From contig CASFBF010000010.1 of NCBI GenBank assembly GCA_949292985.1, positions 77,485 to 141,484 of the forward strand: a stretch of 64,000 nucleotides of DNA. Direction: 5' to 3'. Both the position numbers and the translations under genes were made by a program. Below are positions 12,732 to 32,301 of the stretch, piece after piece. The notes beneath the pieces were generated by a model that saw only the letters and a program-made list of their open reading frames with translations, ran no database searches and was not told the origin of the DNA. Position 1 is the first letter of the stretch, and each line of letters begins with the position of its first letter. Source of the stretch: an uncultured Bacillota bacterium. Lineage in GTDB: Bacteria; Bacillota; Clostridia; Christensenellales; UBA1242.

Positions 12732-12842
12732 AGTTTTCCTTCAAAAATCTATTATAATTTCAACTAATTTTAACAAATTTTGATGAAATATACAAATAAA
12801 ACTTGACCCAAAGTAAATTTTATAATCTTGAAAAAACTTAAT

Positions 12843-12870
12843 AAAAAACGGCTAAGTTTAGCCGTTTTTT
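12843..12870 (-). terminator. Terminator of the giant lipoprotein gene
   Basis: A stem AAAAAACGGCTAA / TTAGCCGTTTTTT lies just downstream of the stop codon of the 18-kb gene, with U-tracts on both strands. Confidence 0.85.
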
Positions 12871-12871
12871 A

Positions 12872-15800
12872 TTAGATTGCTTCGCCATTTGAATCATAAC
12901 ATAGCGCGCTGGTGATACCTCCAACAACAAAGAAATATTCTTTATGCCAATCAAAATCTACTCTCCATATTCCAAAATCAACTCGAGCACCATAGTAAGT
13001 ATACAAAATATTCCCTGTTGGTGACAATATATTTGTGCCTTCAATCTTTTTTCCTGCTGTATTAAATTTGCCTATAAATGTTATCCTATCTCCATTCCAT
13101 CCGGTTGATTGTTTTTTTGCTATACCCACATCTATACCCGCTATAATTTCCCCATTAGTAGTATTTTGAATGTTGCTAACCGATCCATTTCTATAAGCAT
13201 TTAGATTTGCATGATATGTCCAATTGTTCTCGTCCACATCTATTCGGTTTTCTGGCCCGTCATGTTTTTCAAAATTTAAATATAAATTCAATCCTCCCCA
13301 ACCGTCATTACCTCTAGAGCCATCATAAAGACCATCCAAGCCATCACGCAATGTTCCAGATATAACATAAGGTTCCTGTTCTGAAGCAGTATGAGTATTT
13401 TTATTTGTGGCAAAGTAGTATGCTTTGCCTGCTTCTCCTTTTTTACCTCCTTCAGTTGCTCCGAATGTGCCATTAGTAGGGGCTGTTCCATTTGTTTTAT
13501 CAGTTCCACCTTGTCCATCAGCACCGCGTCGACCATTGCCACCATCGCCTGCTTTAACTATACCAAAGTTATAGATGTTCACAGAATTAGACTCTATGTT
13601 AACGTGAGAAATGGCATAAACATCTTGCCCTTTTTGTCCATCTTCACCCGCACTTGCTCCATCTGCACCTCTTACGCCTATGATTGTCCCATAATTGCAA
13701 AGCGAACCTGAAACATTTTTCAATTCAGTTGTGCCTGATCCTGCAATACCAGCCATATCACTTTCATAAATCGTATTGGAAAATGATGTAAAATTACTTA
13801 TATTCGATAATGATGAACTAATTATTCCTGCCACACCACCGGCTTTAATCCCAGATAAATGTTTTGCTGTACTTATTGTACCAAAAGTTTTTACGTTCTT
13901 TAAGTTTGAATTAAGACTTACAGCCAACATACCTGCTTCTACGTGTGATGAGTCAGAAACAATTATTGAACCTGCAATAGATATATCTTTAACAAATTGA
14001 GAACTAATATTTTCGAAAAGTGCATTGTTGGAAATAGAAGTATAATTTATTACATTATCGTTTGTTGATGTTAAATTTAAATTTAAAACATAATTCTGAT
14101 CTATATTTTTAACATTTATATCTTTTGTTATAACAACTCCTTGATAATTGGTTCTATTTTCTCCACCAAAACTAACTCCCACTGTTTGTGCACCTGATTC
14201 TTTATCGTTGTAAGTTGCAGTAATTCTTATTTCTGCGTCATAAGTAAATGGTCCTACTGACGTCTCAGTTGTGTTAGCAGGTGATTGTCCATTAATTGTA
14301 TACGTTGCGCTCCCTAACAAATCCGCATTATCTTTTACCGGTACATTTGCAAAAACAGAATTTATTTTATTATTTTCAAGCAAGATGTTAACATTTGTTT
14401 CTATTGCATGAGTTTTAATACTAAATATTATATATTGGTTCGCTTTCAAAGTCGTATCGTTATATATAAATTTTGAAGAACCATTATCATCACTTATTTC
14501 AAATTTCCCGCCTTCTGTATTCGCTTTTACTGGTTCGCTTTCAGTAGTAAAATCTTCAAGCCGATAACTAACGCCTCCAATAACAACTATTCTTTTTTCT
14601 CCTTGAGTCGTAATTGTAAAACCAATAAATTCTAAACTTCCGCCTTCTTTTAATTTGTAACTATAATTGTTTCCTTTTACATTTATAACGCAATTTGACC
14701 CCTTATAAGTTTCAAATATTTGCAAAGAGTATGTTTTGTTTTCCTCGTCTTCAACTATATTATAATAGAAATAGTTGTTTTTATTTTCAATGAAAGTAAT
14801 CCCTTCATTTATTTCCCAGACATTTTCCCCTTGTTTAAAAGATGTAAGAACCCCATCTGAATTTATTTCAAAATTGTAAGTGATACCACCAAACTCAACT
14901 GTTCCTGGACCACCTGTAGTAGAATTTATTACATCACTTTGTGCATAAGAATTTTCGTTTATCAAAATTGGGTCTTGCGTGTATACAACAGCCGTTGTAG
15001 CATTATCTCCGTCTAAAATTAAGTCATCATAATTATAATCATATGTTGTCGACTGCGACCCAGAAATTTTGAACACCGTTTTTACTAAACTTGAACTAGT
15101 TCCATTCAAATTACTAAATGGAATTGGTTTTTTACTGTCGCTTGTTATCACTCCTACGCTATTTGTTCCATAACTATATTCAACCCACTGATTCTCAGCA
15201 ACATTTATTGAAATGTTATCTAGTCTATAATTTCGAGTATAATAGTAATTTTCATAGTTTATGGTTGAGTTTTTCCCCGCGCCACTTCTTGAACTTGATG
15301 AAACATATTTATTAGCATTGCCATTAGCAATATATGTAGCAGATATCTCATCATCTTCTGCTGCGTAAGTTTTTGTTTCAGTTGAACCAAAAGGTGAATC
15401 CACATAAGAATTATCAAATTTGTATGTTATAGTAACAGCACTCCAGTCTTTTTTTAAGTTATCAGCAACAGAACGAAGATTTCTATACAAATACAATGTT
15501 AGGTGTGTTGTATTAGAACCTTGGTCGTACGTAAAATTAGTTGCCATAACATAACCTTTGCCTGTAGCGTGCGTAAATTCAATTTGAGTCGAAGTATCAC
15601 CTAAACTAATAGTTTTATTACTTGAATCCCAATTTAATCCACCATCTAACGATATTGAAGCTACTTTCCCCTGTATAACTCTGGTTAAAGTAATTTTAAT
15701 CCGTTCATTACCTACGCTTCCCAAATCAGTTACTTGCCTTGAGGATAAGATCACATCTCTTGCACTATCATCATTTGTGTTATTTTCAGCCACATACTGA

Positions 15801-18800
15801 GTAATGCGCTCATAAGTAGAACTAGTATTTGTATATGTACCCTGTATACTTTGAGACCAGTTATTTGATGAAGTATGGTTCAAATATAAAGTTTTCTGCT
15901 CAGTAGAGATTTCTCCTTCGTTAAGATTTAAAGTGATAGTTTTCCCATTTAAGTCGTTTAAAACAGCATCGTTGTTTGTCCCTTGATAGACTAAATCCGT
16001 CCCGTTATATTGGAATTGATATGTACTCGTGCCTTTTACAGAATAATTGTTTCCACTTGTTAAATTGTATTCACCGTTAAGTTTTATTTTTAAATTACTT
16101 CCTACAACAACCAAATTACTAGCATTAAGTTTAATTGTTTCAACATAGTTTTCCCTATACGCAGAAACTGTATATTCAACATCACTGCTTCCTGATTCAG
16201 TGAAACTATAATTTATAGTTACATAAACTTTTTCATCTCTGTATTCCGCTCTTCCTGAAACATTATCAATACCGTCACCATAACTTTCAACATTTACAAC
16301 AAATTTGTAACCAGCGTCGTAAAGAGTTTCAACATCAATCCCACCTATTGTTGATATTCCATTATCATCTTGTTTGGTAGCCATATTGCTTGTCAATACC
16401 GCTTTTAACTCAGCCCCATTTTCTACAAACGCATATGGTTCAGAGCCAATATAAATCGTCTTTATGTTACTCGTTTCAGTATTTCTGGTTTTGATTAAAG
16501 TTAATGAGTCTATAGAGGCAACTGGCTGAATCCATGCTCTGTCAGCATATGTATTTTCAACCTGCTTAACTTCCCAATAACGAGTTTGAGTTTTAGTAAC
16601 AGAATCATTGTAAGTTATGCTTCTTGTAGTTTTAACGTAATACTTACTTATCCCACCTAATTCATCAAGTTCTGCTACAACAAATTGAGGCTCGTTTGAT
16701 GAATCCATATCAATTTTTAACTCTGCACTTATATCCAGTTTGGTATGAGTAAAATCATTACCTTCTTTTGTTTTCGAAAAACTTGGTTCATTTTCAGGAA
16801 CATTTATGTTTTCTTCAAAATCTGCACTACCGTACAAGCCATTTCGATATGCTTTTTCTGCATTTTTACAATTTGTTGCTGTAATATTTACACCACTCGC
16901 GTCTAGACCTATTTCAGAAACAAAAACATTTATTATGTTGTCAATATTGGCTTTAAATTTAACGGTCCCCTGTTGACTTTCACGTGTATAAACAATTTCT
17001 GCGTAATCGTTTTTCATATTGCCTGTATTTCCTAACGCTTCGATGAACCCCGAATTTTCGCAACCACTAACATTTGTTCCTTGCGCAACAATGCCAGCCG
17101 CATAAGCAACGCCTTTATTATTCCCCGATGATGAATTGCCATCTGCGTTTATATTTTTGTTACCTGCCTTAACCATTGAAGTGTTATAACAACTTGTAAT
17201 AGTTGTGGCTTTCCCTGCAATACCACCAGCATAGTAGTTGCCTGAAACTGTTGCGGTATAACCATTAAATACTGTATTTTCGTTTCCACAAGAACTTAAT
17301 TCCTTTGCTTGACCCGCTATTCCTCCAACATAACTTTCTGCTACATTAACATTTATTGGGGCATAATTAAAACAATTTTCTATTTTATTGGAACCTTCAC
17401 TTGTAATCAAACTTCCAATAATCCCACCTACATATGTATTTGAAGTAGATGTATCTGAAGTAGAACTAGTGACAGTTACAGCCACATAATTTTTACAATT
17501 AGAAATTTCAGTGCTAACATTACCATTACCAAACAATCCGCCGATGTTTGTTCCAGAACCAGTCAATGTTCCCGAAGCGATAATGTTGTCAGCGCTCCCT
17601 GTAACCGTGCTTGCAACAACCGCATCTCTTGTTACCTCTGCATTAGTAACACGTAAATTTTTAATGGTTGCAACAGAAGAGAATAAAGTAGCCTTAAGCC
17701 CGTTTATCGTGTGCCCATCACCATCAATAATTGCAGAATTTTCTTCTACACCTGGCCAAGTAGAAACATAACTACTTGTTTTGGATAAATCAATATCACG
17801 AACTAGTTTGTAATTTTTACTTTTATCGGTTGAAATCAAAGCAAGTTTGGTTGCGTTAGGGATTAAGTAAAATTTTATATTGTCAATTGTTTCGGTAGTA
17901 GAAATATTGAATGCAGCAAAATTTCTTGTTGGATATGCGTAGTTAAATTCAATGTTTTGCTTCCAGCCATTAATAGAGGTTTCAGCGGTATTATTGTAAT
18001 TTAAGGTTTTTCCACTTGTTGTATTTGTTGCGCTAGCGCCAACATTTTCTTGAACCTCAGTTGCGTTTCCATCATACCAGTTAGATTCTAATGAAGACGC
18101 ACTGCCAAACACACCAGTTGTGCCGGTTACATTTTCTTGTGTGTAGTCTTTTTGGTTTACTTTGCTTATGGTATAACAGTCGCTTGCTGTTGAATTAAGG
18201 CCATTTGTGAACGCATAAACATCAGCGCTGATGTATGAAGCCACTTCGCCAGTTGAATATGTTTTGCTGAAATAATTGTATTTGGTGTTGTCTGTTGAAG
18301 CGATGCCTGAAACGGTTCCTAAATCTGTGCCTGATTTACCTGCACGATAAACAATATTGACCGATGATGTGCTTTCAGCAATGAGTCCACCTTGCATCAA
18401 TCCAACCAAACCGCCGATATTTTTTGCACCATTTCCACCAACCGACAGTGTTCCTGTTGCGCTACTTGCAAAAATAATTCCGCCATTAAGGTTATTTACT
18501 AAACCACCAACTTGTGAAACATCATTGTAAGTATCGCTTACATCATTAAAATTATTATTTACGATAAGACCAGAAACAAAACTATGTTCACCAACTGTTG
18601 AAATTGGTTGTGTTTTTGTTGCAAAATCTCCAATGTAAGCAAAATTAGTTGCATCGTCAGAAGGATAAACCCCAGCATAATAAGTTATGCCATTAGTATT
18701 AGTCACACCAGCAGTTTGTTCTGTGGTAATAGGATTAAATTTTGTACCTTCATCTCCTGAAATATAACGATTAAGGATATCAATCATTGAATTATTGGTT

Positions 18801-21800
18801 TTATTAACTGTGCTAAAACCTGAGAAATTTGTAGTCATAACATAACCAGTGTCAAGCATCTTTTCATCATCACTTACAGCAAGCACTAGTTGAGATGAAT
18901 AGTAATTGTTGTTTGTTAAACTTGCACTTCCCCCATCACCTATAAGTGCGCTTGTTATGTATGCTGATGAAGCAAGTCGTGGATTATTATTTGTAAATGC
19001 TATTATATTGCCTTCTGCTGTAATGTTTGGTGTCTCCGCATCGTTCCCAGATTGTCCTACGATACCACCAAAATAGTATTTATCTACCTGAGAAGCACTG
19101 TCCCCGCTATCAGTATATGAATAAATCACATCTCCATAGTTTACAGTGTTTTTAACTGATATTGCGCCTGCATTCCCGTCAAATATTTGGCCGATAATTC
19201 CCCCAATAGAATGTGTTTTGTTTGTGTTTGGAACACTGAATTTAAAAGCACCACCAAACACAACATTTTGAATTGTTTTGCTTGTGGTATCACTTATGTT
19301 ATTAACGGACCCAATAAATCCACCTGCATTTACATTATTTTGTGTATTGATAAAGAAGTTTGAAAGAACTTTAATGCTATAATTTGATGAATCTCCCTTG
19401 ATTGATATTCCTTGATTATCCGCATTAGCATAAGAAGAACTGCCTATCACTCCACCAATGTTTATGGTTCCATTAGTTCCCTCAGTAGTCGAGATAGATG
19501 TGATACTATTTGACTCAAAACTTTCAACTTTAACACTATTACCTTGATTGCTTCCTATTAAATCACCTACATTTAATGCGGTTGTTGTTTTAGCCACAAA
19601 GCCAACATAATTATCTCCGTCAAAATTGTAAGTGTTATTGTTTCCATTAGAATCTGAAACCAAATTCACGCTTGAATAGTTAATCCCAATGAAGCCACCA
19701 AAATTCATGCTTTCAACATCAATAGAGTTAGTACTATTTGCTACAAAAACGGTTTTGCTTAATGAAGCCTTATTATTTTTGAAAGCGTCAAAACTTACAT
19801 CAACATTCGAAACAACACCCAGCGTCGCGTTGTTCTCACCAATAAGTCCGCCAATTGAAAGTTGTCCATCAAACTCTGAGTAAGTATCTTCAGCACTGAA
19901 TGTTTGCAATGTGCCATTTACATCAAGATTTTGAACATTGAACGAGCCTTCTGCCTTCCCAAACAATAATCCAAAGTTTGTATTTGTTAATTTATAATTT
20001 GTAGCGTTGATGTTACCTAATTGTATTAAAGTCGATATTGAACTATCCCTAGTAGAAGTGTTGCTTACTTCAAAATTTTGAAGTATTGCACTTCCTGCAA
20101 TACCGCCAATTTGAGCGCTAGAAGCAGAAGTGTTAACACTTAAAACAACCGTTTGAGAATATGATTGTTTTGTTGTAAGTGTTAATCTTGCATTTTGTGA
20201 AGAAATTTCACCAAAATATCCACCTAAGTTGAGTGTTCCTGTACTTCCAGCAATGCTTATTGAAGAAGTTAAAGTTGAGCCTTCCGTTACAGTACCAGTA
20301 AGTTCTGGTGCTTTTACTTCAATAACCATGCCTGCATAATTTTGCACTGGCGTTGTAGGCTCAGACGGCTCGGTTGGCGTACCATCATCAGTTGAAGCAC
20401 TTTTTACATTTTCATTAAGCGAACCCACATACAAACCAGCATAAATATTTCCACTGGTTGTTGCATTTACTTGGAATACATTTTCTCCGTGTTCTAAATT
20501 AGGATGTTTAATTGTAATATCTTGAATTCTAAGTGCTTCAAAAATAGAATTTTGTGAAACACTACCTGCAAGTAATCCGGCATTGTTACTATTAAATTGT
20601 ATATAGCTTGAACCGCTTCCGTTATCACCACTATTTCCAGCATTACAACAGAAAATAAATTGTATACTTTTGAACGAAGTATTAACGGCACTAGGAACAA
20701 GCAGTCCCGCACTTGAAGCGACAGACTCAATAATTATAGGCGAACGAACATAAAGTTTAACGCCTTCAATATTTGCATCGGTAACGCCTGCAGAGGAAAT
20801 TACACCTCCACTGATTTTTTGCGTTTGTTGATTTTGTTCGAAAACGATATTTAAGTTTTTAACATTTAAGCCTGAACCAGTAGTACCAAATAAAGGTTTA
20901 TCTATTATAATTCCTGGATAGCCTGAGCCTGATGCTCCTCCAATTTCCTCATAGTAAGATGTTCCAATAATAGTTGGAGAATTATCTACACCCCAATCAG
21001 AAGAAGTTGTGTACCCTACAATTATTCCTGAGAAACCTTCAATGTTAAAATCATAGTTTCTTAAATCAACCATGCCATAACTATCGCTGTCGGCATATCT
21101 TCCCCTAACCCTTACTTCAACTGACGAATTTTGCATTCTAGCAAGAACGATTTCAACATTGTTTTGGTCGAGATAAATATAATTTACGCTATTAACAAAT
21201 TTGATTTCAGGGTAGAGTTTTCCTGTTGTATGAATCCAATTTTCATTACTCCAAGCCTTTGAGTTAATAAACGCACCGTTTGTAATTGTAAAGCCCTCAT
21301 TTTCAGATGTAAAAGTTGAAACAGAAGGGATAACAAAATAATATTCCAAATCTGATGCTTCAGAATAATTTTCATACGGTACAACATTGATTTTTACACC
21401 ATTTGCAGAGTAAGACTTCATATACCCAAAGGATTTAAGTGATGTGATTTCACTTGCCCCAACACCTTCTGAACTGCTGATTGCGGTTGTTGAAGGCATA
21501 ACAACAATTGTCGCACCATTTTTAACAAAGCCAGCCACAGCATAAACATTTGCTGTTGTTGTGTCTACGGCTGATTGTAAATAATAAGGATTATCAATAA
21601 CACCATAATGAGCAAATGAGTTAACTGATGACATAACTAACTTAGCGTTTTCTTCAACAACACCAAACAAGCCACCGAAAGAATGTTCTGCAGTTTGTGT
21701 TATTGCACCACTGCCATTATATTGACCACCATAAGCGAACACATCGCCGATTGAATAAACTTCTTGCAAATAAAGGTTAGTAGAGATTCTTAATTGTGTA

Positions 21801-24800
21801 GCATTGTTATCAATATAGTAATTATTCCCAGCAATCAAAGCACCAGCAATACCACCTGCATATGAAACGCCATCAGAAGTATAATTGATTGCGTTCAGTT
21901 TGTTATACCCCACATAAATTGATCCAGAAGCCATAACGCCCATCAGTCCGCCTACGTATTTTGGATAATATCGATACTCGCTGGTCCCTGCTTGACCTTT
22001 GTATTTAAACAAATCAAGCACGCCCCTTTCTGTTGTGTTAGCGCCGTTTATATAATAATTATTTGTGTTTGCCTCAATGTTGTTTTGAACATTTTCTTCG
22101 TGCTCTGAATAAAGTTGATAGAATTGGCCATTTGCTAATCCTGCAATTCCGCCTGCAAAATAGTTGTATGAAAGAATATTTGCATAAGTATTTTCACCCT
22201 TTGCAATAACTATTCCAATATCTTGTGCCTTGGTTTGATAGCCTGTGTAACCAAATACGCCACCTGCTATTTCACCACGAACATCAACTGAACCTTGCGT
22301 TAAAAGTTTAGACACAGTATAATCAATGCCCGCATCGCTTGTATAAACAAAACCTGTATAAGTTGCTTCTAAAGAATTATAAATATCCAAATAACCAACT
22401 ATTCCACCAGCGAGCGAAACTTGTCCTACTCCACCATTGTTCAAGTTGTTTGAATAGAAATTATTTATATTTTGACGCTGGCTGTTTCTAATATTAGACG
22501 GATTAAAGCCACTTCTATACAACATACTTGACAATGAAGAATTAGAATTATCATTATCGTCATAGTAAGAGGCTTGCACAATAATATCATTCACTGTCAA
22601 GCCTTTAAGTGTTGTCTGCCCAAATGCAGCGCCGATAATACCACCTGCGATATTTCTTCCCAACACACCAACGCCAGAAGATGTGCTGTCTGGTTCACTT
22701 TGTGACAAATCAATGTTGAAAATAGTAGAATTTTGAACAAGTCCTACAAGTCCACCTACGACATATGAATTTGAAGCGGTAACATTATCCATCAGCAAAT
22801 CAATATTTTTAATAACTGCATTTTTGGCTTGCATAAACAGACCTGCCGAATTATTAGAAGAGCGAATCGAAACATTATTAACCGAGAAACCATTTCCGTC
22901 TAATATTCCAGTGAAAGTTTTATCTATTGATTTGACTTCGGCATTTCCTTGTGCATTGTTGAGTTCAGATAAATCAATATCTGCAACAAACCTATAAGCA
23001 CCAAATATTTCACTGCTATTAAAGTATGCACTTACGTAAGTGGAAGTGGAATCACCCATTGCATTTTTAAAATCAGTAGCCGAACCAATTAAAATAGGAT
23101 TTATGGCATTACCATATGCAGTATTATATTTTATTGCAGAAGAATCGGAAGTGTTTTCTAAAATAGCATAAGGCAAGAAATACACATCTTTATCACTAGG
23201 ATCCACGACATAATATCTATGGCTGACAGTTAAAGTTTGAGTGCTTACAAGTTGTGGACCATAATCAGTCATCAACCAAACGCCATCATCTGTTGAATTT
23301 TCACTTGCGAAAATAAAACCATAATAAGCATTTTCTGATTTAATTTCATTTTTATCCACAAGCGACGCTTGATTTGAAATTACATTTTGAACATCGCTTG
23401 AAGAATCGTCATTGTAATTTTCATTTATATAATATGACAATTCTATTTTGCCAGTATTTAAACTATTCCCGTTTTTATCAACACCTGAAAAACTTAACTG
23501 TAACAAGTCTGCCATTTCTATATAAGAAGCAGATAGAGAATTTTCAATAAATCCTTGGTTTGTGTAAACAAAACCTGCACTTGATCTACTTTTAAGTTCT
23601 GTATCATTTTTGATTAAAATATTTGAGTAGCCATCAGAAATAGTTCCACTTACTAAATTATTAACAACGAAACCTGAAACAACACCTCTTGAAGAAATGT
23701 TCGTTTGTTTTAAATGAACAGAAGTAATTTCTTCGCCTTGTTTTTGTTGTCCTGCTGCCTGAACATAAGAAGTTCTTATCTCTCCTGAATTGCTAATTAC
23801 AAATCCTGCTGTTTGCGATGAAGTTAAAGAAGCGCTGTTTGTGATTTGAATATTCTTAACACCTGAGGATGCGATCTCTCCTGAATTTGTAATCACAAAC
23901 CCTGCCATTTGCCCCTGAGCCGAGAGCACGAAATTAGGCAATGATAGAGTGGAATAAGTTGTTCGATTGGTATCTTCAATTTGTTCACCAATAACGATAA
24001 TTTCATCTCCGCCTACTTTTGAATTTGTAATACTACCAGCATTGGTAATCACGAACCCTGCAACGTTGCTTACTATTGAAGAATCACCTATATAATATGG
24101 AGTTGAACCTTTAACGAAATTTACAATAATTCCCACATCTCCGCTAGTAACCGTGGCATTATCATTTTCATAAGCGATTACCTCGCAATTAGTAATTACC
24201 CCGTTGTTAGTAATAGCAAAACCTGCAATATTGATAGTACTATAACCTGAAGAAGTGGTATCTACGGTAATCTTGCCCCCACTATAATAATCAACTTTTG
24301 TATTTTTAATGGTTGAAGTAGTTGGTATGTCTGTGAAAAGCGCCAAATTTAAAGTACCCGAACCCTGTGTGTTAAATGATTGAATATGAATAGTATGTCC
24401 ATTTCCATCAAGGTTTTTAAAGTTGGTGGCAGAAATTGGAGTATAATTTTGTAAATAAATATCATTTAAAAGTATATAATCTTGCGCTGTGCCTTCTTGC
24501 GCAACTTGCAAGAAATCTTCAGCGTTTTCAATTAAAAGAGGCAAATCCAAATAAGATAAAACATTAACATTTACAGCAAATGTGGTGGTAATTGGATATG
24601 AAACATTTTTATTTGAAAGGGAAATTACATCTTTTAATGTTATCTGAATTGGAGTAGAAGTTGTTACTAAACCTAATACAGTCAAAATACCATTAGAATT
24701 TTCATCTGATTGTTTATATGTTAATCGGAAATTAGCATTTGAGTATGTCCATACCCCATCACTTGTTGGCTCAAATTTTAGTTTTTGATTGTTGATGTAC

Positions 24801-27800
24801 AGGCGTTCGTAAATTGGAATTGGGTTGTTATTTTGATAGTTTATGGCAAAAGTTTGATCTTCATTTATATAACTTCCTTTTTCTGAGAAATCATTTCTTG
24901 CTCTATAAAGGTTGTTTGCCAATTCAACTTCGTCTGGATTAGAGTAGTCATATGAATAAGTTTCAGGGGTAAAATTATAATCGAAATCTATAGTTATAGG
25001 AATACCTATGTACGCATCAAGAACGTCCAAGTTTAAATTGTCGTTATGAGATGCTCCATAAACTTCTGCGCTAGTAGGCAAGAAATCAACAATGGTAATA
25101 TACGCATACGAAGTTTTAATTTCTTGAACACCATTTATTGTTCTAGAAACCTGTGCACGAACAGAGAACTCACCATTCTTTACAACTGGTTCTTCATTTT
25201 CAATTAAACCTGTTAAAATACCGGCATCTAATTTTGCATACAAATTTACATACAAAGTATATGTACCATTTCCGTTATCAAATTTTTCCCAAGTATTTTC
25301 AGGTGCGATAGTAATTCCTGATGTGTTTTCAGGAATAAGAGCATCTAATGTTTGATCATTTCTAAGTAAAATTGAAAGTTGAAGATTTCCACCTTTCGCA
25401 ATAAGCGCACTAACATCTCCATCAATAGTGATTTCTGCTTCAGGCAAAAAGGAAATATATAATTCAAAATCAGAAGTTTGACAAACCAAATCGCCGTTTG
25501 CATCATAGAAATTAGCAGAGATAACAAACTTTGTATCCTGAGCAATATTTCCAGCGGCTGTTAATCTGAAAGCGAAGAAACCATCATCTACTCTGCCAAT
25601 GCGAACACCATTTGCGATATAAATAACATTAGAAGAAGAGTCTGTTGTATATTGAGATGTGGATTGCTCAAATCTGTTCATCTTTGTTATACCAAGTACA
25701 GCGCCATCGGAATTTTGATATGTCAAAGTCATATATTCGTAATATGCAAAGTCAGGGTCTATTACAACTTCCATAATAGAACTACGGCCAGGCGATATAA
25801 CTGAAACCACTTCATCTGTTCTCGAATAAACATTTACACCATTTTTTGAGGTTGTGTTATCTGACTTATAATTTGTAATATCAATATGATTTATTGGCTG
25901 ACTTGATAATGTTAAATCAATCTTTGAGTTTTCTTTATTCGTAGTTCCTGTTTTAGACGAAACAAACAAACTATAATATTCATCGTCCATTATAGTTGAT
26001 CGATAATTGTTGGCAATAGAAATTGTCAGTTTATATGAAATAGAAGTTGTTGTAATATTATAAGCGAGTTTAGAAACGTGAATATTTATGATGTCTTCGC
26101 CAGCGAATGAATAAACAAAGTTATCACCTTGTTGTAGTGAAGATAGAAATGCTTGTGATTGATTTTTCATTATGGAAAGAACCAAATCATCATTTGGCTC
26201 ATCGGTTACAAGCACAACATCAAGAACAGAATCGTAGGCTGGTACAATATTGAGTGAATCAGCGCTTATTCGAATATCATTTGCGCCCAAAACAGGCGTG
26301 ATAGAAATTTCGCGTAAAGTTGATTCCATAATAGCATTGTTATATTCTTCAGCCAAATTATTAACTGAAATTTGAGCCTTTACAGTAAATGAAGTTTGAT
26401 TTTCTAATGCTTCTTTTGTACCTGACTTTACTGTAATGTTCCCCACCATACCATTAGTGGACAATTCTACATAATTTTTTAAATTATCATTGTCCAAAGT
26501 CATGTTTATTTTGGTGGAGTTCAACATTAGATTAAAGGCTTGGCCACGCAAATAAACAATGTTCGTGGTGGAAAAATTAACGATGTCAGTTTTACCTTCT
26601 TGAATAGTAAATCCTGATGTTTCAATATTATTATGTTCAACAGTGAAATCTTCTATCAAATACAAAATTTTTATAGCGAAAGGTTTGTTTTGAGTATAGT
26701 TCTGTTTTGAAGATATAGTTAAATTGAAATCTCCTATATCTTTTAGAATTATATTGCTTCCAACAACTTCCGCAATATTGCTGTTGCTACTTACAGCCAC
26801 CAATTTATTCCCACTTTCTCCAAACAATTTAGTCAATGAAATAGTGTTATATGATGTAAGTTCACTATTTTGACTATCTGAGAGATTTGAAGAATTGCGT
26901 AATTTATAAAAATACAATATGCCACTGTTATCGTTTACCTTAACAGACTGATTTGTATCTTCAATATTAAAATTAAGAACGCTTTCAGTGTATTCATTCT
27001 GGTAGAAAGTTAAATGTGCTTCGCCATTTCTAACATATTCTTTAAAATTGGTTGTATCACCAGTAAAAATCCAATTCTGCAAGTTATTTTGGCTCTGATA
27101 ATTGATTCCATTTCCCCAATAAACATCAAAATTATCAAGATTTCCCTTTCCTTTTTCAGCAATGCCATTATAAATCATGGAGAAAGAGTTTACAACACTT
27201 CCACTTTCTGCATATCCCACAAAAGCGCCTATTGTAGCGTTTTCAACATTTAATAATGGATTTTTTGTTGATGAACTGTTGTCAAAGTCGTAATTATACA
27301 CATAACTGTGGCTAATTTCTCCACCTACCATATACCCAACAAATCCACCTGCATATTCGGCAGTGATTAAATTGGTGATATTAGTAGTAACCGTTTCCCC
27401 ATCTATTTCTTGTGATGATAGAGCGAACACATAAAACTCCGCATAAGCATTTGAAATTGTTCCGCTGTTATATCCTGCAATTAAACCTGCATATGTCATT
27501 GTGTCTGCTAATTCAATGCTTGCGCCTTCCACTCTTACATCACTGATGGAGCCTGTGTTATAACCAGCAACTGCACCTCCAAAAATATTACCGTCTTTTT
27601 CAAAACCGCCAGCAACTTTACTAGGTGAAACAGTAGTCTGTGTACTGTTTACGGAAATTGTAATATTACTCAATGTTCCTGCATTTGAATTTGCAACAAA
27701 ACCTCCGCCTGTAACATTACCTACAAAGGTCAATTGTTTTACAGTACCTTGTCCTGCTATATTCTCGAACAGTGGTTTAGATTCGCCAGTAAAATTGATT

Positions 27801-30800
27801 ACAACGTTCTGATCATACCCCTTTAACGAACCTGTTAAAGATGAAAGTGAAGCCCAATTATTTAAATTCAAAGAATTCATCAAAACATAGTGTTTGTTTG
27901 TTTCTATATTTTTTAGTTGGGTTTCAGTATAAATTCTTGTTGCAGTTGCCTCACTTAAACCATCGGCAACAACAACTTCAATGCGTTTTATAAATTGGTT
28001 GTAATAAACTTTTGTTTGAGTTGTGCCCTCTATTTTATTGTAGTAACCCAAACATATTTCTTCATAATTGTTATGCAGTTCTGTCAGTGGAGTCAATTTA
28101 GTAACTGCGGTTTTTCCTTCGTCAACAAAATAAACGAACTGTTCGATACCTTTTTTAACTCTAACAGCATCTTTTGGATAAATATAGATATAACCTGTCC
28201 CTCCAATTGTAGCCCCCGCTTTAATGCTAACAACACCTAAATCACTAATTTCTACCAAATCTGGTTGTGTGCCTGCATTAGGAACAAAAGAATATGCAAT
28301 GTCAGTATTATGAGCATCACTTGGTTGTACGTCTGTTATAAGTGGATAAGTTTTATCAGAAGTAGAACTACCATATATGTCAAGATAAATTATGCCATCA
28401 CTTGAAGAGTTTTCCCAATCTATACTTTCAACTCTGTCAGCATTTTCAATAACTAAATCGATAGTGGCATAGTAAGTGGTGTTAAAAACTGTATATTGAA
28501 TTTCAATTTGATCAACAAATGAATGATAGCCATTGGTAGTTTTAGCAGAAACATCAAAAGTAATATTTTTGTTGGTAATAACAATGTTTTCAATATCATA
28601 GTTATCAAATTGAATATAATCGGAACCATTCACTCCATTTTGTTCAATAACTGAAACAAAAGATAAGAAATCGTTACCAAAATATGTCACATTATTGCCA
28701 TCATTTCTATAAGAAATAGTAACTTTTGAAGTTGCCAAATCTTTTTCTTCTTGTGCAACAGAATCAAGAGCAGTTAATACTAAATTGGTTGGATTTGCGG
28801 ATAATTTAGTAGGAGACGTATAACTTTCAAGATAGAAAATTCTGTATGCTAAAATTTGTCCATGCGCTTGATCATAACCTGTAAATGTAAAGAGTACATA
28901 ACCTTTAAAATCGTTAGAAGCCAAAGTAAGTCTGTTTGTAGAATAATCAAAAGTTGCGTATTTATCTTGTTCGGTTTCAGCGTTAACAAACAAACCTAAA
29001 ATTTCATCAAGGTTATCCGCACTGATGTTTTCAGGGCTGGCTTCATCAAAATATCTGAACGCGAAAGAAATTCCTGTTGCAGAATTGGTATTTAAATTTA
29101 ACGTAACACTGCTTCCAAGTTTCATGATCAAAGATTGAAGAGAATAATTGGAATTTAAAGCACCAAAATCTTGATTTTGGTATTGCACTTGTGAAATTGA
29201 GGTACTAGATTGTCCCTGATGAGTTACAGAGGCTTCGACCATAGGCAAATAAGGTGCAACGACAATGTTTTCAATAGATCTGAAACCATTTTCGTGAGTA
29301 ATATACAGCGTTATAGTCAAATTTTCGTTGGAAATGTTTTGTTTAATATTTGAAACATTAAAACTAACTGTTCCTGTTCCTGAGTTAAAAGCAAAATTTG
29401 AAACTTTAAATAAATCACTTTCAACTTCATTTAAAGCCAAACCTTTGTTTATCCCTATAAGTGAATTGGAACTAACTTCAACTTGAATTGTGTTTTCCCC
29501 ATATGTAGAAACATATCTAATATCTTGACTTCCTATGCTAAAATTAGTGTTTGGCGAACGATAACAAACTAATTTTGTTTCCAAACAAACGGTTGGTGAT
29601 TGTTGCGAAACAAATTTACAGTTAATTTGTGTTTCTTCAACAAAATTTTCGGCAGTTTTTATATAAATAAGCGAATTGTTTGCAATTCCTTCTGCAATAT
29701 AAACACCATTTTTTTCTTGTAAAGTAATTTGCTGGCCTCTGTCATTATAAAGGCGAATGTAATTATTTATATTTTGTCCACCATCAGCATACAATTCAAC
29801 ATCAAAAAGTGCTTTATCATTTGCTACCGTATCAGGCCCTAAATTAACCACAAAAGGACGACCAAACTGAAAAGAACTGTCGCCGTTGTAATTATCGTAT
29901 ATATCAAGAATATCACCCGAAGTTACAATTTGGTTGTTTGATGTAACCTCAATTCTGTCGATAACATCAACAAGATTGATTTTAAAGTTAACCGAAGATT
30001 TTATATAACTAAAACCGTCATACCCTACATCGAAACTTACATCGAGAACTTCTGGTGCAAGATTTGAATCATTGGCTTTTGTTTTAATTTTATAGATAAT
30101 TTGAGTAGAAGTTTCTGAAACTGACGTGTTATATGTTGTAATGCTGATTCTATCACTTGCCTCGCCGATAGAATTTTTGACATTTCTACTTACAGTCAAT
30201 TCTGGCAAATCCCCACCTGTTGGCGCATTAACAACCATTTTTACATAACCAACAGCTTCTTCTTGCGAATCGTCATTTTTAACCAAATTGAAAGTTTCAT
30301 TTTCTGTTATTTCATCACTAAAAGCATCAGGATTTCTTGAAAATTCAAGTTGAACATTTGGCAAAGCATTTATTACCGTCAAATTTACATCTGCATAAAA
30401 TTCTGGCTTATATACTGAAACGGCTTTAAGCAGAACATTTGTTAAGGAGCATTCTTCGCCAACAAACAGCACGTTGCCCTGCAATGAAATATTTTCATCT
30501 ATACTTACAAGTTCCCATTCAACGTCTTTGCGATTACTCTCTCCACCTTCTCTTGAAGTAAAAGACAAAAATCTATCACTGTCAAGAATTGTGGTTTCGC
30601 CCTTAACTACATACTGATTACTGAATTCACTTGAATCTTGCTTTTGCTTAACGCCAAGGATATCACTGTAAACATAAATGTTAATAACTTTCTGTCCATT
30701 TCCTTCATAGGATCGCAATACAATGGACGCATTGCCTTCACTTTTGCCTACGATGCTGATTGTGGTTGAATTGGTATTTTGATTGTAAACAGCGGTGGTT

Positions 30801-31051
30801 GAAATTATGCTTTGATAGTCATTATTAACTTCTACTTTGCCTGAAGAAACACCCTCTACGGTTGCGATTATTTGTGCAGAAGTTTTATCAGAGCCTAAAT
30901 CAATTTCAATACAATCTTCACTAACAAAATCTTGGGAAGAAACAACGATGTTAGCCTTAGGTGTTTCACCGCAAGCGGTAAAAATCACCCCCCCAAACAG
31001 CAGGAATGTGCTTAACAATGCAACGAAAAATTTTGACAATTTATTTTTCAT
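12872..31051 (-). CDS. Giant 6059-aa surface lipoprotein with Ig-like and GLUG-like repeats
   Basis: One intact frame of 18.2 kb. Residues 1-27 are a lipoprotein signal ending in FTAC, so the protein should be anchored to the outer face of the membrane. Residues about 30-1000 are repeated beta-strand-rich segments resembling bacterial Ig-like domains. From about residue 1050 come modules that each open with a D-I/L-D/Y-L strand motif and an L/I-DGxGHxI-type motif (near 2195, 2690 and 4420, a diverged one near 1055, and a weaker one near 5650). These are followed by many GGxxG/AGxxxxNxG turns of GLUG type, suggesting long beta-solenoids. A Gly-rich collagen-like stretch lies near 5795-5880. 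There is no LPXTG motif or cell-wall-binding domain. It may be an adhesin or carbohydrate-contacting stalk. The start is fixed by a GGGAGG ribosome binding site. Confidence 0.9.
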   Translation of the reverse strand: MKNKLSKFFVALLSTFLLFGGVIFTACGETPKANIVVSSQDFVSEDCIEIDLGSDKTSAQIIATVEGVSSGKVEVNNDYQSIISTTAVYNQNTNSTTISIVGKSEGNASIVLRSYEGNGQKVINIYVYSDILGVKQKQDSSEFSNQYVVKGETTILDSDRFLSFTSREGGESNRKDVEWELVSIDENISLQGNVLFVGEECSLTNVLLKAVSVYKPEFYADVNLTVINALPNVQLEFSRNPDAFSDEITENETFNLVKNDDSQEEAVGYVKMVVNAPTGGDLPELTVSRNVKNSIGEASDRISITTYNTSVSETSTQIIYKIKTKANDSNLAPEVLDVSFDVGYDGFSYIKSSVNFKINLVDVIDRIEVTSNNQIVTSGDILDIYDNYNGDSSFQFGRPFVVNLGPDTVANDKALFDVELYADGGQNINNYIRLYNDRGQQITLQEKNGVYIAEGIANNSLIYIKTAENFVEETQINCKFVSQQSPTVCLETKLVCYRSPNTNFSIGSQDIRYVSTYGENTIQVEVSSNSLIGINKGLALNEVESDLFKVSNFAFNSGTGTVSFNVSNIKQNISNENLTITLYITHENGFRSIENIVVAPYLPMVEASVTHQGQSSTSISQVQYQNQDFGALNSNYSLQSLIMKLGSSVTLNLNTNSATGISFAFRYFDEASPENISADNLDEILGLFVNAETEQDKYATFDYSTNRLTLASNDFKGYVLFTFTGYDQAHGQILAYRIFYLESYTSPTKLSANPTNLVLTALDSVAQEEKDLATSKVTISYRNDGNNVTYFGNDFLSFVSVIEQNGVNGSDYIQFDNYDIENIVITNKNITFDVSAKTTNGYHSFVDQIEIQYTVFNTTYYATIDLVIENADRVESIDWENSSSDGIIYLDIYGSSTSDKTYPLITDVQPSDAHNTDIAYSFVPNAGTQPDLVEISDLGVVSIKAGATIGGTGYIYIYPKDAVRVKKGIEQFVYFVDEGKTAVTKLTPLTELHNNYEEICLGYYNKIEGTTQTKVYYNQFIKRIEVVVADGLSEATATRIYTETQLKNIETNKHYVLMNSLNLNNWASLSSLTGSLKGYDQNVVINFTGESKPLFENIAGQGTVKQLTFVGNVTGGGFVANSNAGTLSNITISVNSTQTTVSPSKVAGGFEKDGNIFGGAVAGYNTGSISDVRVEGASIELADTMTYAGLIAGYNSGTISNAYAEFYVFALSSQEIDGETVTTNITNLITAEYAGGFVGYMVGGEISHSYVYNYDFDNSSSTKNPLLNVENATIGAFVGYAESGSVVNSFSMIYNGIAEKGKGNLDNFDVYWGNGINYQSQNNLQNWIFTGDTTNFKEYVRNGEAHLTFYQNEYTESVLNFNIEDTNQSVKVNDNSGILYFYKLRNSSNLSDSQNSELTSYNTISLTKLFGESGNKLVAVSSNSNIAEVVGSNIILKDIGDFNLTISSKQNYTQNKPFAIKILYLIEDFTVEHNNIETSGFTIQEGKTDIVNFSTTNIVYLRGQAFNLMLNSTKINMTLDNDNLKNYVELSTNGMVGNITVKSGTKEALENQTSFTVKAQISVNNLAEEYNNAIMESTLREISITPVLGANDIRISADSLNIVPAYDSVLDVVLVTDEPNDDLVLSIMKNQSQAFLSSLQQGDNFVYSFAGEDIINIHVSKLAYNITTTSISYKLTISIANNYRSTIMDDEYYSLFVSSKTGTTNKENSKIDLTLSSQPINHIDITNYKSDNTTSKNGVNVYSRTDEVVSVISPGRSSIMEVVIDPDFAYYEYMTLTYQNSDGAVLGITKMNRFEQSTSQYTTDSSSNVIYIANGVRIGRVDDGFFAFRLTAAGNIAQDTKFVISANFYDANGDLVCQTSDFELYISFLPEAEITIDGDVSALIAKGGNLQLSILLRNDQTLDALIPENTSGITIAPENTWEKFDNGNGTYTLYVNLYAKLDAGILTGLIENEEPVVKNGEFSVRAQVSRTINGVQEIKTSYAYITIVDFLPTSAEVYGASHNDNLNLDVLDAYIGIPITIDFDYNFTPETYSYDYSNPDEVELANNLYRARNDFSEKGSYINEDQTFAINYQNNNPIPIYERLYINNQKLKFEPTSDGVWTYSNANFRLTYKQSDENSNGILTVLGLVTTSTPIQITLKDVISLSNKNVSYPITTTFAVNVNVLSYLDLPLLIENAEDFLQVAQEGTAQDYILLNDIYLQNYTPISATNFKNLDGNGHTIHIQSFNTQGSGTLNLALFTDIPTTSTIKNTKVDYYSGGKITVDTTSSGYSTINIAGFAITNNGVITNCEVIAYENDNATVTSGDVGIIVNFVKGSTPYYIGDSSIVSNVAGFVITNAGSITNSKVGGDEIIVIGEQIEDTNRTTYSTLSLPNFVLSAQGQMAGFVITNSGEIASSGVKNIQITNSASLTSSQTAGFVISNSGEIRTSYVQAAGQQKQGEEITSVHLKQTNISSRGVVSGFVVNNLVSGTISDGYSNILIKNDTELKSRSSAGFVYTNQGFIENSLSASYIEMADLLQLSFSGVDKNGNSLNTGKIELSYYINENYNDDSSSDVQNVISNQASLVDKNEIKSENAYYGFIFASENSTDDGVWLMTDYGPQLVSTQTLTVSHRYYVVDPSDKDVYFLPYAILENTSDSSAIKYNTAYGNAINPILIGSATDFKNAMGDSTSTYVSAYFNSSEIFGAYRFVADIDLSELNNAQGNAEVKSIDKTFTGILDGNGFSVNNVSIRSSNNSAGLFMQAKNAVIKNIDLLMDNVTASNSYVVGGLVGLVQNSTIFNIDLSQSEPDSTSSGVGVLGRNIAGGIIGAAFGQTTLKGLTVNDIIVQASYYDDNDNSNSSLSSMLYRSGFNPSNIRNSQRQNINNFYSNNLNNGGVGQVSLAGGIVGYLDIYNSLEATYTGFVYTSDAGIDYTVSKLLTQGSVDVRGEIAGGVFGYTGYQTKAQDIGIVIAKGENTYANILSYNYFAGGIAGLANGQFYQLYSEHEENVQNNIEANTNNYYINGANTTERGVLDLFKYKGQAGTSEYRYYPKYVGGLMGVMASGSIYVGYNKLNAINYTSDGVSYAGGIAGALIAGNNYYIDNNATQLRISTNLYLQEVYSIGDVFAYGGQYNGSGAITQTAEHSFGGLFGVVEENAKLVMSSVNSFAHYGVIDNPYYLQSAVDTTTANVYAVAGFVKNGATIVVMPSTTAISSSEGVGASEITSLKSFGYMKSYSANGVKINVVPYENYSEASDLEYYFVIPSVSTFTSENEGFTITNGAFINSKAWSNENWIHTTGKLYPEIKFVNSVNYIYLDQNNVEIVLARMQNSSVEVRVRGRYADSDSYGMVDLRNYDFNIEGFSGIIVGYTTSSDWGVDNSPTIIGTSYYEEIGGASGSGYPGIIIDKPLFGTTGSGLNVKNLNIVFEQNQQTQKISGGVISSAGVTDANIEGVKLYVRSPIIIESVASSAGLLVPSAVNTSFKSIQFIFCCNAGNSGDNGSGSSYIQFNSNNAGLLAGSVSQNSIFEALRIQDITIKHPNLEHGENVFQVNATTSGNIYAGLYVGSLNENVKSASTDDGTPTEPSEPTTPVQNYAGMVIEVKAPELTGTVTEGSTLTSSISIAGSTGTLNLGGYFGEISSQNARLTLTTKQSYSQTVVLSVNTSASSAQIGGIAGSAILQNFEVSNTSTRDSSISTLIQLGNINATNYKLTNTNFGLLFGKAEGSFNVQNLDVNGTLQTFSAEDTYSEFDGQLSIGGLIGENNATLGVVSNVDVSFDAFKNNKASLSKTVFVANSTNSIDVESMNFGGFIGINYSSVNLVSDSNGNNNTYNFDGDNYVGFVAKTTTALNVGDLIGSNQGNSVKVESFESNSITSISTTEGTNGTINIGGVIGSSSYANADNQGISIKGDSSNYSIKVLSNFFINTQNNVNAGGFIGSVNNISDTTSKTIQNVVFGGAFKFSVPNTNKTHSIGGIIGQIFDGNAGAISVKNTVNYGDVIYSYTDSGDSASQVDKYYFGGIVGQSGNDAETPNITAEGNIIAFTNNNPRLASSAYITSALIGDGGSASLTNNNYYSSQLVLAVSDDEKMLDTGYVMTTNFSGFSTVNKTNNSMIDILNRYISGDEGTKFNPITTEQTAGVTNTNGITYYAGVYPSDDATNFAYIGDFATKTQPISTVGEHSFVSGLIVNNNFNDVSDTYNDVSQVGGLVNNLNGGIIFASSATGTLSVGGNGAKNIGGLVGLMQGGLIAESTSSVNIVYRAGKSGTDLGTVSGIASTDNTKYNYFSKTYSTGEVASYISADVYAFTNGLNSTASDCYTISKVNQKDYTQENVTGTTGVFGSASSLESNWYDGNATEVQENVGASATNTTSGKTLNYNNTAETSINGWKQNIEFNYAYPTRNFAAFNISTTETIDNIKFYLIPNATKLALISTDKSKNYKLVRDIDLSKTSSYVSTWPGVEENSAIIDGDGHTINGLKATLFSSVATIKNLRVTNAEVTRDAVVASTVTGSADNIIASGTLTGSGTNIGGLFGNGNVSTEISNCKNYVAVTVTSSTSDTSTSNTYVGGIIGSLITSEGSNKIENCFNYAPINVNVAESYVGGIAGQAKELSSCGNENTVFNGYTATVSGNYYAGGIAGKATTITSCYNTSMVKAGNKNINADGNSSSGNNKGVAYAAGIVAQGTNVSGCENSGFIEALGNTGNMKNDYAEIVYTRESQQGTVKFKANIDNIINVFVSEIGLDASGVNITATNCKNAEKAYRNGLYGSADFEENINVPENEPSFSKTKEGNDFTHTKLDISAELKIDMDSSNEPQFVVAELDELGGISKYYVKTTRSITYNDSVTKTQTRYWEVKQVENTYADRAWIQPVASIDSLTLIKTRNTETSNIKTIYIGSEPYAFVENGAELKAVLTSNMATKQDDNGISTIGGIDVETLYDAGYKFVVNVESYGDGIDNVSGRAEYRDEKVYVTINYSFTESGSSDVEYTVSAYRENYVETIKLNASNLVVVGSNLKIKLNGEYNLTSGNNYSVKGTSTYQFQYNGTDLVYQGTNNDAVLNDLNGKTITLNLNEGEISTEQKTLYLNHTSSNNWSQSIQGTYTNTSSTYERITQYVAENNTNDDSARDVILSSRQVTDLGSVGNERIKITLTRVIQGKVASISLDGGLNWDSSNKTISLGDTSTQIEFTHATGKGYVMATNFTYDQGSNTTHLTLYLYRNLRSVADNLKKDWSAVTITYKFDNSYVDSPFGSTETKTYAAEDDEISATYIANGNANKYVSSSSRSGAGKNSTINYENYYYTRNYRLDNISINVAENQWVEYSYGTNSVGVITSDSKKPIPFSNLNGTSSSLVKTVFKISGSQSTTYDYNYDDLILDGDNATTAVVYTQDPILINENSYAQSDVINSTTGGPGTVEFGGITYNFEINSDGVLTSFKQGENVWEINEGITFIENKNNYFYYNIVEDEENKTYSLQIFETYKGSNCVINVKGNNYSYKLKEGGSLEFIGFTITTQGEKRIVVIGGVSYRLEDFTTESEPVKANTEGGKFEISDDNGSSKFIYNDTTLKANQYIIFSIKTHAIETNVNILLENNKINSVFANVPVKDNADLLGSATYTINGQSPANTTETSVGPFTYDAEIRITATYNDKESGAQTVGVSFGGENRTNYQGVVITKDINVKNIDQNYVLNLNLTSTNDNVINYTSISNNALFENISSQFVKDISIAGSIIVSDSSHVEAGMLAVSLNSNLKNVKTFGTISTAKHLSGIKAGGVAGIISSSLSNISNFTSFSNTIYESDMAGIAGSGTTELKNVSGSLCNYGTIIGVRGADGASAGEDGQKGQDVYAISHVNIESNSVNIYNFGIVKAGDGGNGRRGADGQGGTDKTNGTAPTNGTFGATEGGKKGEAGKAYYFATNKNTHTASEQEPYVISGTLRDGLDGLYDGSRGNDGWGGLNLYLNFEKHDGPENRIDVDENNWTYHANLNAYRNGSVSNIQNTTNGEIIAGIDVGIAKKQSTGWNGDRITFIGKFNTAGKKIEGTNILSPTGNILYTYYGARVDFGIWRVDFDWHKEYFFVVGGITSALCYDSNGEAI
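13430..13665 (-). repeat. Gly-rich, collagen-like segment inside the giant protein
   Basis: This part of the gene encodes two runs of Gly-X-Y-like sequence (GADGASAGEDGQKGQD and GDGGNGRRGADGQGGTD, then GATEGGKKGEAGK), separated by a beta-rich stretch. It is distinct in composition from the Asn/Ser/Thr-rich remainder. Confidence 0.7.
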
Positions 31052-31078
31052 TTATTCCTCCCAATTATTATTTTTAAA

Positions 31079-31107
31079 TTGTGAAAAAATATAAATTTTT
31101 ATCACAA
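31079..31107. promoter_or_regulatory. Inverted repeat upstream of the giant gene
   Basis: TTGTGA (31079-31084) and TCACAA (31102-31107) form an inverted repeat around an A/T core, 28 bp upstream of the giant gene start. It could be an operator. The half-site resembles Crp/Fnr-family boxes, but the spacing is wider than usual. Confidence 0.3.
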
Positions 31108-31186
31108 AAAAATAATAATATTTAATATAAAAGAATTATAAAACAAAAAATCGAAATTTGTCAATTAAATTGCAATGTAAAACAAC

Positions 31187-31222: not shown

Positions 31223-31924
31223 ATGAGAAAAATATTATCACTTATGAGAAAACTGATCGAACAAGAAGGATTGATTAAAAATGGCGATAAAATTGCTATT
31301 GGCGTTTCTGGTGGGAAAGATAGTTTAACTTTGCTTACAGCCATGCGAGAATACCAAAAATATATCAACCCAAATTTTGACCTAACAGCAATCGCAATTG
31401 ACCTTTCAAACAGCGAAATGGATTATAGTGAAATAGAAAGTTACTGCAAGCAAATTGATGTGGCTTTTCACCTTGAAAAATCGAATGTTTTTGAGATTTT
31501 GTTTGATGTAAGAAAAGAGAAAAACCCGTGCTCTCTTTGTGCGAATATGCGCAGAGGATTACTAAACACTACCGCCAAAAAATTAGGTTGCAATAAAGTT
31601 GCTTTGGGGCACCATGCTGATGATTTAATAGAAACCTTTTTGCTTAGTTTGTTTTTTGAAGGAAGGCTATATGCACTGCAACCAAAAACTTATTTGTCCC
31701 GAACTGAACTTGAAGTGATTAGGCCTATGTTGTTTGTAGAAGAAAAAGAGATAAAAAAAGCATCAAAAAATATGCCAATAATTAAAAATGTTTGTCCAAA
31801 AGACCATTTTTCTGAGCGAGAAAATGCAAAAAAAATATTAGAAAAATTCACCGAAAATTATCCTGACTGTAAAAATAAAATATTAAAAGCGTTAACTAAT
31901 CCACAAAGAAATAAATTATGGTAA
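31223..31924 (+). CDS. TtcA-like tRNA 2-thiolation PP-loop protein
   Basis: A 233-aa adenylating PP-loop ATPase of the TtcA/TilS superfamily. The ATP-pyrophosphatase loop SGGKDS is at residues 29-34. The TtcA-type cysteines are C103 and C106 (PCSLC) plus C191 (NVCPKD), which would ligate an iron-sulfur cluster. GHHADDLIET is the typical second motif. TtcA thiolates cytidine 32 of tRNA; diverged clostridial members may use other positions, so the exact substrate is uncertain. It is monocistronic, convergent with spoIIID, and the mRNA is probably leaderless. Confidence 0.82.
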   Translation: MRKILSLMRKLIEQEGLIKNGDKIAIGVSGGKDSLTLLTAMREYQKYINPNFDLTAIAIDLSNSEMDYSEIESYCKQIDVAFHLEKSNVFEILFDVRKEKNPCSLCANMRRGLLNTTAKKLGCNKVALGHHADDLIETFLLSLFFEGRLYALQPKTYLSRTELEVIRPMLFVEEKEIKKASKNMPIIKNVCPKDHFSERENAKKILEKFTENYPDCKNKILKALTNPQRNKLW

Positions 31925-31963: not shown

Positions 31964-32212
31964 TTATGCTGTTAAATATTTTTCTTTTGTTGCTTGACCA
32001 CCTCTAATATGTTTTTCTGCAAAATTTATTTGCAATATTTTTTCTATTTTTTGGTATTTTTTTCCATTTATTTTTCTAAGTCTGTTCGACATATCTACAT
32101 GAACTGTGCTTTTACTAACTCCGAACAAGTCGGCTGTTTGTCGTAAAGTGCTGTGAGTTGAGATGATATATTCTGCTTCAAGTAAAACTCTTTTTGTGAT
32201 GTCATCTTTCAC
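31964..32212 (-). CDS. spoIIID: Sporulation transcription factor SpoIIID
   Basis: An 82-aa DNA-binding regulator of the mother cell. It has the full-length helix-turn-helix LRQTADLFGVSKSTVHVD (about residues 23-40), followed by the basic RLRKINGKKYQ and the C-terminal IRGGQATKEKY typical of the family. In endospore formers it modulates sigma-E and sigma-K genes. The start is GTG with AAGGAGG eight bases upstream. It lies close to the SpoIIQ-like gene, as in clostridia, but acpP stands between them. Strong evidence that the lineage sporulates or recently did. Confidence 0.95.
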   Translation of the reverse strand: MKDDITKRVLLEAEYIISTHSTLRQTADLFGVSKSTVHVDMSNRLRKINGKKYQKIEKILQINFAEKHIRGGQATKEKYLTA

Positions 32213-32272
32213 GGCAAAATCCTCCTTGTAGTAAACTATTCGGAATTTTGTCGTTTTATGTCAAAATTTGAA

Positions 32273-32296
32273 TAAAAAAACAGGGCGTGTGCCCTG
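32273..32296 (-). terminator. Terminator of acpP
   Basis: On the minus strand CAGGGC, a 4-nt loop and GCCCTG are followed by seven T. Confidence 0.85.
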
Positions 32297-32301
32297 CCTC
32301 A

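Follow-up and report, generated by a model that had tools for sequence, protein, structure and literature searches.

The window analysed here, a stretch of 64,000 nucleotides from an uncultured bacterium of the family UBA1242, is dominated by one gene on its minus strand (Table 1). Translation of positions 12872-31051 yields a single open frame of 6,059 codons from ATG to stop with no internal stops; the opposite (plus) strand of the same interval contains 341 stops. A first-pass annotation of this DNA had described an intact single gene of 18.2 kb for 6,059 residues that fills over a quarter of the window. Its coordinates proved exact, and the measured share is 28% of the window and 2% of the host genome (897 kb, 11 contigs, 98.96% complete). 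The encoded protein, hereafter the giant, is rich in serine, asparagine, glycine and threonine (together 39%) and poor in cysteine, tryptophan, histidine and methionine (together 2%), a composition usual among exported proteins.

Table 1. Features of the giant lipoprotein gene and its surroundings (window positions; aa, residues of the giant).
Feature	Position	Strand	Evidence
Intrinsic terminator, 16-bp stem and T tail	12839..12874	-	sequence
Giant lipoprotein gene, 6,059 aa	12872..31051	-	frame and orthologs
Fast-evolving C-terminal part, aa 4701-6059	12875..16951	-	dN 0.87 and 0.63 against same-genus ortholog (dS saturated)
Further GLUG-like block, ~aa 2650-3160	21572..23104	-	five-genome alignment, turn density; model partly confident
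Right-handed beta-helix block, aa 2167-2512, best conserved part	23516..24553	-	AlphaFold; IgA1 protease match
First GLUG-like block, ~aa 1031-1310	27122..27961	-	sequence pattern, common to relatives
N-terminal stalk, aa 30-1030, ~nine Ig-like beta-sandwich domains	27962..30964	-	AlphaFold; Foldseek/VIA
Lipobox cysteine C27 (FTAC)	30971..30973	-	sequence alignment; invariant in 43 rows
Signal peptide, aa 1-26	30974..31051	-	sequence; hydropathy
Ribosome binding site GGGAGG	31057..31062	-	sequence
Long hairpin of the 5' leader	31064..31119	-	folding z -2.7 here
Sigma-A promoter, TTGACA-18-TATAAT, exact consensus	31135..31164	-	pattern scan
ttcA-like gene, divergent neighbour in many genera	31223..31924	+	neighbour comparison
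spoIIID, conserved neighbour	31964..32212	-	TIGR02844 E 2.8e-28, under model cut-off
spoIIQ-like M23 gene, conserved neighbour	32588..33160	-	neighbour comparison

The full-length relatives that were examined all have unbroken frames, of 5,956-6,573 aa, and comparison of the giant with its ortholog in the same genus gives a dN of 0.39 against a dS of 2.5, the latter being saturated. Together with the similar genes in about 125 genomes of the family, this indicates that maintenance of the open frame by selection is real, as had been supposed from the large undamaged frame itself. The shaft is conserved (dN 0.19-0.39 across the first 4,700 residues, dS saturated), and the C-terminal quarter, the tip, is fast-evolving. 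Internal tandem duplication is confined to two tiny arrays at the DNA level. The giant stays open next to a decaying neighbour, a radC-like gene (12027-12752, minus strand) with two in-frame stops (TAG and TGA) in an otherwise intact frame; the corresponding position in a same-genus relative carries an intact copy of 237 aa, to which this radC is 76% identical. The data come from a MAG, and at one ortholog locus (L078) the 5' end is split by a stop, which would fit an assembly artefact or a decaying gene with an accidentally open frame. However, independent assemblies agree on length, order and neighbours, and dN lies well under dS; we consider this reading to be ruled out by the ortholog set.

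The giant begins with the signal MKNKLSKFFVALLSTFLLFGGVIFTAC, its sole hydrophobic segment over the usual hydropathy threshold, and the lipid cysteine follows as residue 27. The 63 aligned orthologs have a lipobox, and nearly all of the remaining loci that are complete at the 5' end show a lipobox-like cysteine. The host genome encodes Lgt and LspA, so that the features of a lipoprotein (signal peptide, lipobox with +1 cysteine, both enzymes) are found together. An LPxTG-type C-terminus is absent from the giant and a sortase from the host genome, which places the protein outside the sortase-anchored class. As Lgt and LspA are present and sortase is absent, lipidation appears to be the main route by which the host anchors exported proteins. 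The lipoprotein signal without a sortase motif, noticed at first pass, is thus confirmed (lipobox FTA-C27, no LPxTG). The anchor had also been called uncommon, which calls for revision: judging from the sequences, a lipid anchor is the rule across the UBA1242 giants and no peculiarity of one protein. The giant would be exported by Sec, lipidated on C27 by Lgt and cleaved by LspA, and the C27 lipid would hold it in the membrane.

Structure prediction with AlphaFold covered 1,838 of the 6,059 residues (aa 1-1060 and 2167-2944). Within this coverage both Ig-like and beta-helix folds are seen, which agrees with the modular build proposed beforehand. For residues 1-1060, modelled with 43 family sequences, a chain of Ig-like beta-sandwiches is predicted at a mean pLDDT of 83.9; structural matches to this stalk (Foldseek, VIA) include invasin, FdeC, SbsC, Sap, DSCAM and titin. 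The model of residues 2167-2944, built with five sequences, has a mean pLDDT of 64, with values of 70-97 in most of its helix part, and a right-handed beta-helix is predicted for aa 2167-2600 only. The best structural match of the latter is the beta-helix of IgA1 protease (Z 24.9, rmsd 3.0, 265 residues), followed by polysaccharide lyases (alginate, fucoidan, rhamnogalacturonan) and phage tailspikes.

Turns of the GLUG-like pattern [AVIST]G[GFLM].. occur 40 times in the giant, against 11.2 +/- 3.5 (maximum 24) in 300 composition shuffles, in line with the many beta-solenoid turns first reported. Neither half of the protein matches a Pfam family at E 0.1, NCBIfam gives no match, and a PDB sequence search with the profile of the central block likewise returned nothing; the giant falls outside the GLUG-repeat class of Pfam, and its likeness to the motif depends on turn counts. 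The DGxGHxI openings described as repeated do recur but are few, the form DG[ND]GxxI/V being found three times (aa 2215, 2718 and 4443). A short collagen-like G-x-y run lies at aa 5837. Elsewhere in the window, a 326-aa protein (49219-50199, minus strand) contains a collagen-like repeat (Pfam Collagen, E 3.9e-7).

A home-made rung profile counted 20 canonical rungs, which is an undercount, and the strand spacing of the model was used instead. At 24 aa per rung over about 2,400 aa of solenoid-like sequence, we estimate about 100 rungs and a length of about 50 nm. The "hundreds of rungs" suggested earlier must be reduced correspondingly, and the picture of a mainly solenoid protein has to be abandoned, as the first 1,000 residues form an Ig stalk and the solenoid blocks alternate with Ig-like stretches. 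The Ig chain is estimated to be about 100 nm long. It would carry the remainder of the giant through the cell wall, and the beta-helix blocks alternating with Ig stretches would form a rod that reaches, by fold geometry, an estimated 0.1-0.2 micrometre. The giant is probably long and rod-like.

The window contains two exact sigma-A consensus sites, against 0.11 expected, and one of them ends 84 bp 5' of the ATG of the giant. A promoter at this place, with at most one mismatch, is found in 56 of 63 orthologs and in one of 63 shuffled sequences. The conserved sigma-A promoter and the terminator after the stop suggest that the giant is probably its own single-gene vegetative transcription unit. 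A very high abundance would be unlikely, as the gene lacks the codon bias of rpoB and rpoC (Asn AAC 0.29 vs 0.59-0.65; Phe TTC 0.28 vs 0.46-0.69). In the leader hairpin, the arms TTGTGA/TCACAA are changed to TTGCGA/TCGCAA in the same-genus ortholog, which is a compensated change. Conservation of the hairpin across the family is only suggestive, and an RNA element conserved in the family was set aside, given a mean z of just -1.1 over 56 leaders; Rfam found nothing in the window beyond two tRNAs. The hairpin may stabilise the long mRNA of the giant.

Relatives of the giant are widespread in UBA1242. The first 1,000 residues, used as a query, retrieve a relative in the same genus (63% identity, 6,339 aa) and others in three further genera (6,475, 6,573 and 5,956 aa), all unbroken; these four full-length relatives are collinear with the giant over most of its length. 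The N-terminal profile matches few distant genera, so that absence was judged by a profile of the central block (aa 2167-2944, five genomes). This profile matches 127 of the 147 family genomes, from 32 of the 38 genera. Most matches lie in open frames of 4,000-8,000 aa; a few of the 127 are weak or in frames truncated at contig ends. Homologues of the central block are thus found in most of the family, a search for homologues having been proposed at the outset; elsewhere in the order Christensenellales the profile gives short, weak matches only. A scan of named genomes yielded 80 loci, all in uncultured Clostridia or relatives, and nearly all with one long frame and a lipobox cysteine, apart from a few cut contigs and the split locus L078. 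One of them (L058, ORF of 5,691 aa) belongs to a genome of Candidatus Caccopulliclostridium, which has been placed in the GTDB family UBA1242 (PMC8035907). On this sequence distribution the giant can be regarded as a hallmark of the family. Six of the 38 genera have no full relative, which implies that the lifestyle does not strictly require the giant.

In about 60 of the 80 loci the giant follows a spoIIQ-like gene, acpP and spoIIID, or faces ttcA. Its identity between genomes tracks that of SpoIIID, TtcA and SpoIIQ (Spearman 0.81, 0.74 and 0.62; none of 500 permutations as high), which points to vertical inheritance with the chromosome and not to mobility. The neighbouring spoIIID, spoIIQ-like M23 and YwmB-like (DUF1779, weak) genes (31964-33670, minus strand) stand in a genome of 0.9 Mb, SpoIVA is found in 145 of the 147 family genomes, and the endospore programme seems to be retained despite genome reduction. 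Sporulation genes have already been remarked upon as unexpected in UBA1242 (PMC12306168). The spoIIQ cluster also includes a conserved 185-aa protein of secreted type (33699-34256, minus strand), somewhat similar to TasA/camelysin by eye, which has no match in Pfam or NCBIfam.

The same genome encodes a second giant lipoprotein, a paralog of 3,382 aa (L024; G000:C10:62151-72299), which adjoins rpoB 5 kb outside the window. In four other genomes examined it has 3,118-3,399 aa, and in three genera it immediately follows the large giant. Both genes together account for 3.2% of the genome.

Genomes without the giant provide insight into its possible origin. In seven of eight such genomes examined, the slot of the giant is filled by a lipoprotein of 330-574 aa, which follows spoIIQ and a pyruvate-kinase-like gene. 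One of the seven has a Big_2 Ig domain. When all ORFs of the eight loci are compared with the first two Ig domains of the mature stalk, two of the seven score best, but weakly (E 1.4e-4 and 3.1e-4); the apparent sequence link between the short lipoprotein and the stalk is weak. At these loci (L111-L118) the short lipoprotein is mostly followed by two conserved genes of secreted type, of roughly 580-960 and 400-590 aa. In the SpoIIQ tree, seven of the giant-less genomes fall on one side of a branch with 99/100 support; the eighth sits on a long branch, and its placement is uncertain. The simplest reading is one transition between the short and the giant form, the direction of which we infer: the giant probably arose through expansion of a short Ig-type lipoprotein, which still holds this slot in the genera without a giant. 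The short lipoprotein of the sister genera would thus form a before-and-after pair for the birth of a giant bacterial gene.

We interpret the giant, with some confidence, as a lipid-tethered surface fibre of Ig and beta-helix modules, vegetatively expressed, that acts as an adhesin or makes contact with partner cells or surfaces. A tethered stalk with a variable outermost tip is a design typical of adhesins. Given this design, and since UBA1242 bacteria are reported to rely on other cells, contact with a partner or a surface is the most likely function. The members of the family are gut bacteria with reduced genomes, without respiration and without standard sugar or amino-acid importers; they are probable symbionts or parasites, dependence on a partner being argued from their metabolism (PMC12306168). 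A more far-reaching version is put forward tentatively and is rather doubtful. In it, both giants constitute the contact apparatus of the entire family, taken as spore-forming gut bacteria that depend on others for nutrients. They would be a lipid-anchored tether or conduit leading to one particular kind of partner cell, with a single origin in an ordinary Ig lipoprotein that grew more than tenfold, and the fast-evolving tip would set the choice of partner. It is also unlikely that both giants make up a structural coat without partner binding, a lipid-anchored counterpart of an S-layer. Ig-like folds similar to those of the S-layer proteins SbsC and Sap, the consensus promoter with its structured leader and the presence through most of the family are in favour of a coat, but the lack of rpoB/rpoC bias in codon usage makes very high expression less likely, Pfam found neither SLH nor another wall-binding domain, and a fast-evolving tip would be unexpected in a lattice-forming part. 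With neither a wall-binding domain nor high-expression codon usage, the giant falls outside the S-layer class.

The second-ranking structural matches of the beta-helix, i.e., alginate, fucoidan and rhamnogalacturonan lyases and phage tailspikes, raise the idea of a tethered machine whose beta-helix blocks capture or degrade polysaccharide. We regard this as improbable: Pfam detects no enzyme family at E 0.1, the best match is a beta-helix of IgA1 protease that does not bear the active site of that enzyme, HExxH is absent, and UBA1242 bacteria are reported to have no standard sugar uptake (PMC12306168). A protease was likewise rejected, as the giant lacks the HExxH zinc site of IgA1 protease (M26). 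Somewhat less probable still is a sporulation or spore-surface protein, a role suggested by the position beside spoIIQ and spoIIID. The adjacency is conserved and SpoIVA is nearly universal in the family, yet orthologs share a promoter with the vegetative sigma-A consensus, genomes without the giant retain SpoIVA and SpoIIQ, and with acpP and ttcA in the same cluster the neighbourhood is not purely sporulation-related; on the first two of these grounds this reading was set aside.

Giant surface proteins as such are known from Apilactobacillus (PMC12863079) and nanohaloarchaea (PMC10266531). Giant1-5 of Apilactobacillus kunkeei, an animal-associated Firmicute with a small genome, are extracellular proteins of 3,000-8,000 aa, and share with the UBA1242 giants their occurrence as several per genome and their beta-solenoid domains (PMC12863079). 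In A. kunkeei, however, the beta-solenoid is N-terminal (Giant1-4) and followed by mostly alpha-helical repeats (Giant1-3), the C-terminus carries an SH3b-like wall-binding domain, a lipid anchor is not described, and such Giants are limited to a few fructophilic genera (PMC12863079). The UBA1242 giant, found in most of its family, has a lipid anchor, an N-terminus predicted by AlphaFold to be Ig-like, and internal beta-helix blocks; Pfam finds no match to an alpha-helical shaft or SH3b, the C-terminal part lying outside the modelled stretches. The nanohaloarchaeal SPEARE proteins (~9,000 residues) resemble the giant in being membrane-anchored, with tandem Ig-like domains, and encoded in tiny, partner-dependent genomes, but are archaeal and possess a VirB4/TraG-like ATPase domain (PMC10266531), which Pfam does not detect in either half of the giant at E 0.1. 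The beta-helix of IgA1 protease from Streptococcus and Gemella (PDB 6xja, 7uvk) superposes on aa 2167-2600 (Z 23-25, ~3 A over ~260 residues, 14-18% identity); the giant differs by its far larger size and the absence of HExxH and LPxTG. Invasin, FdeC and similar proteins have a tandem bacterial Ig-like stalk as well (Z 9-10, high rmsd), a likeness that in the models is one of common architecture only. These proteins reside in the Gram-negative outer membrane, whereas the giant has a predicted lipid anchor in a one-membrane bacterium. Our literature search, which fell short of most subscription papers and all bioRxiv preprints, found UBA1242 giants unreported. To this extent, what is new is a giant with a lipid anchor and leading Ig domains that characterises most of a family of reduced-genome Clostridia and has a short counterpart in sister genera.

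Bacteria of UBA1242 are common in animal guts, have genomes mostly of 0.8-1.4 Mb and are believed to rely on other cells. The parts with which they make contact are unnamed so far, the published account mentioning hypothetical membrane proteins only (PMC12306168). In our preferred reading as an adhesin, the variable far end of the giant would bind partner bacteria, mucus or polysaccharide, and the giant would give a bacterium largely devoid of biosynthesis and sugar uptake a fibre for making contact. A giant gene at one locus, kept through most of a family that has shed so much of its metabolism, is a specific and testable contact candidate. Since a similar protein is kept at the same gene position across the family, we consider the giant a strong candidate for the means by which these dependent bacteria come into contact with other cells or surfaces.
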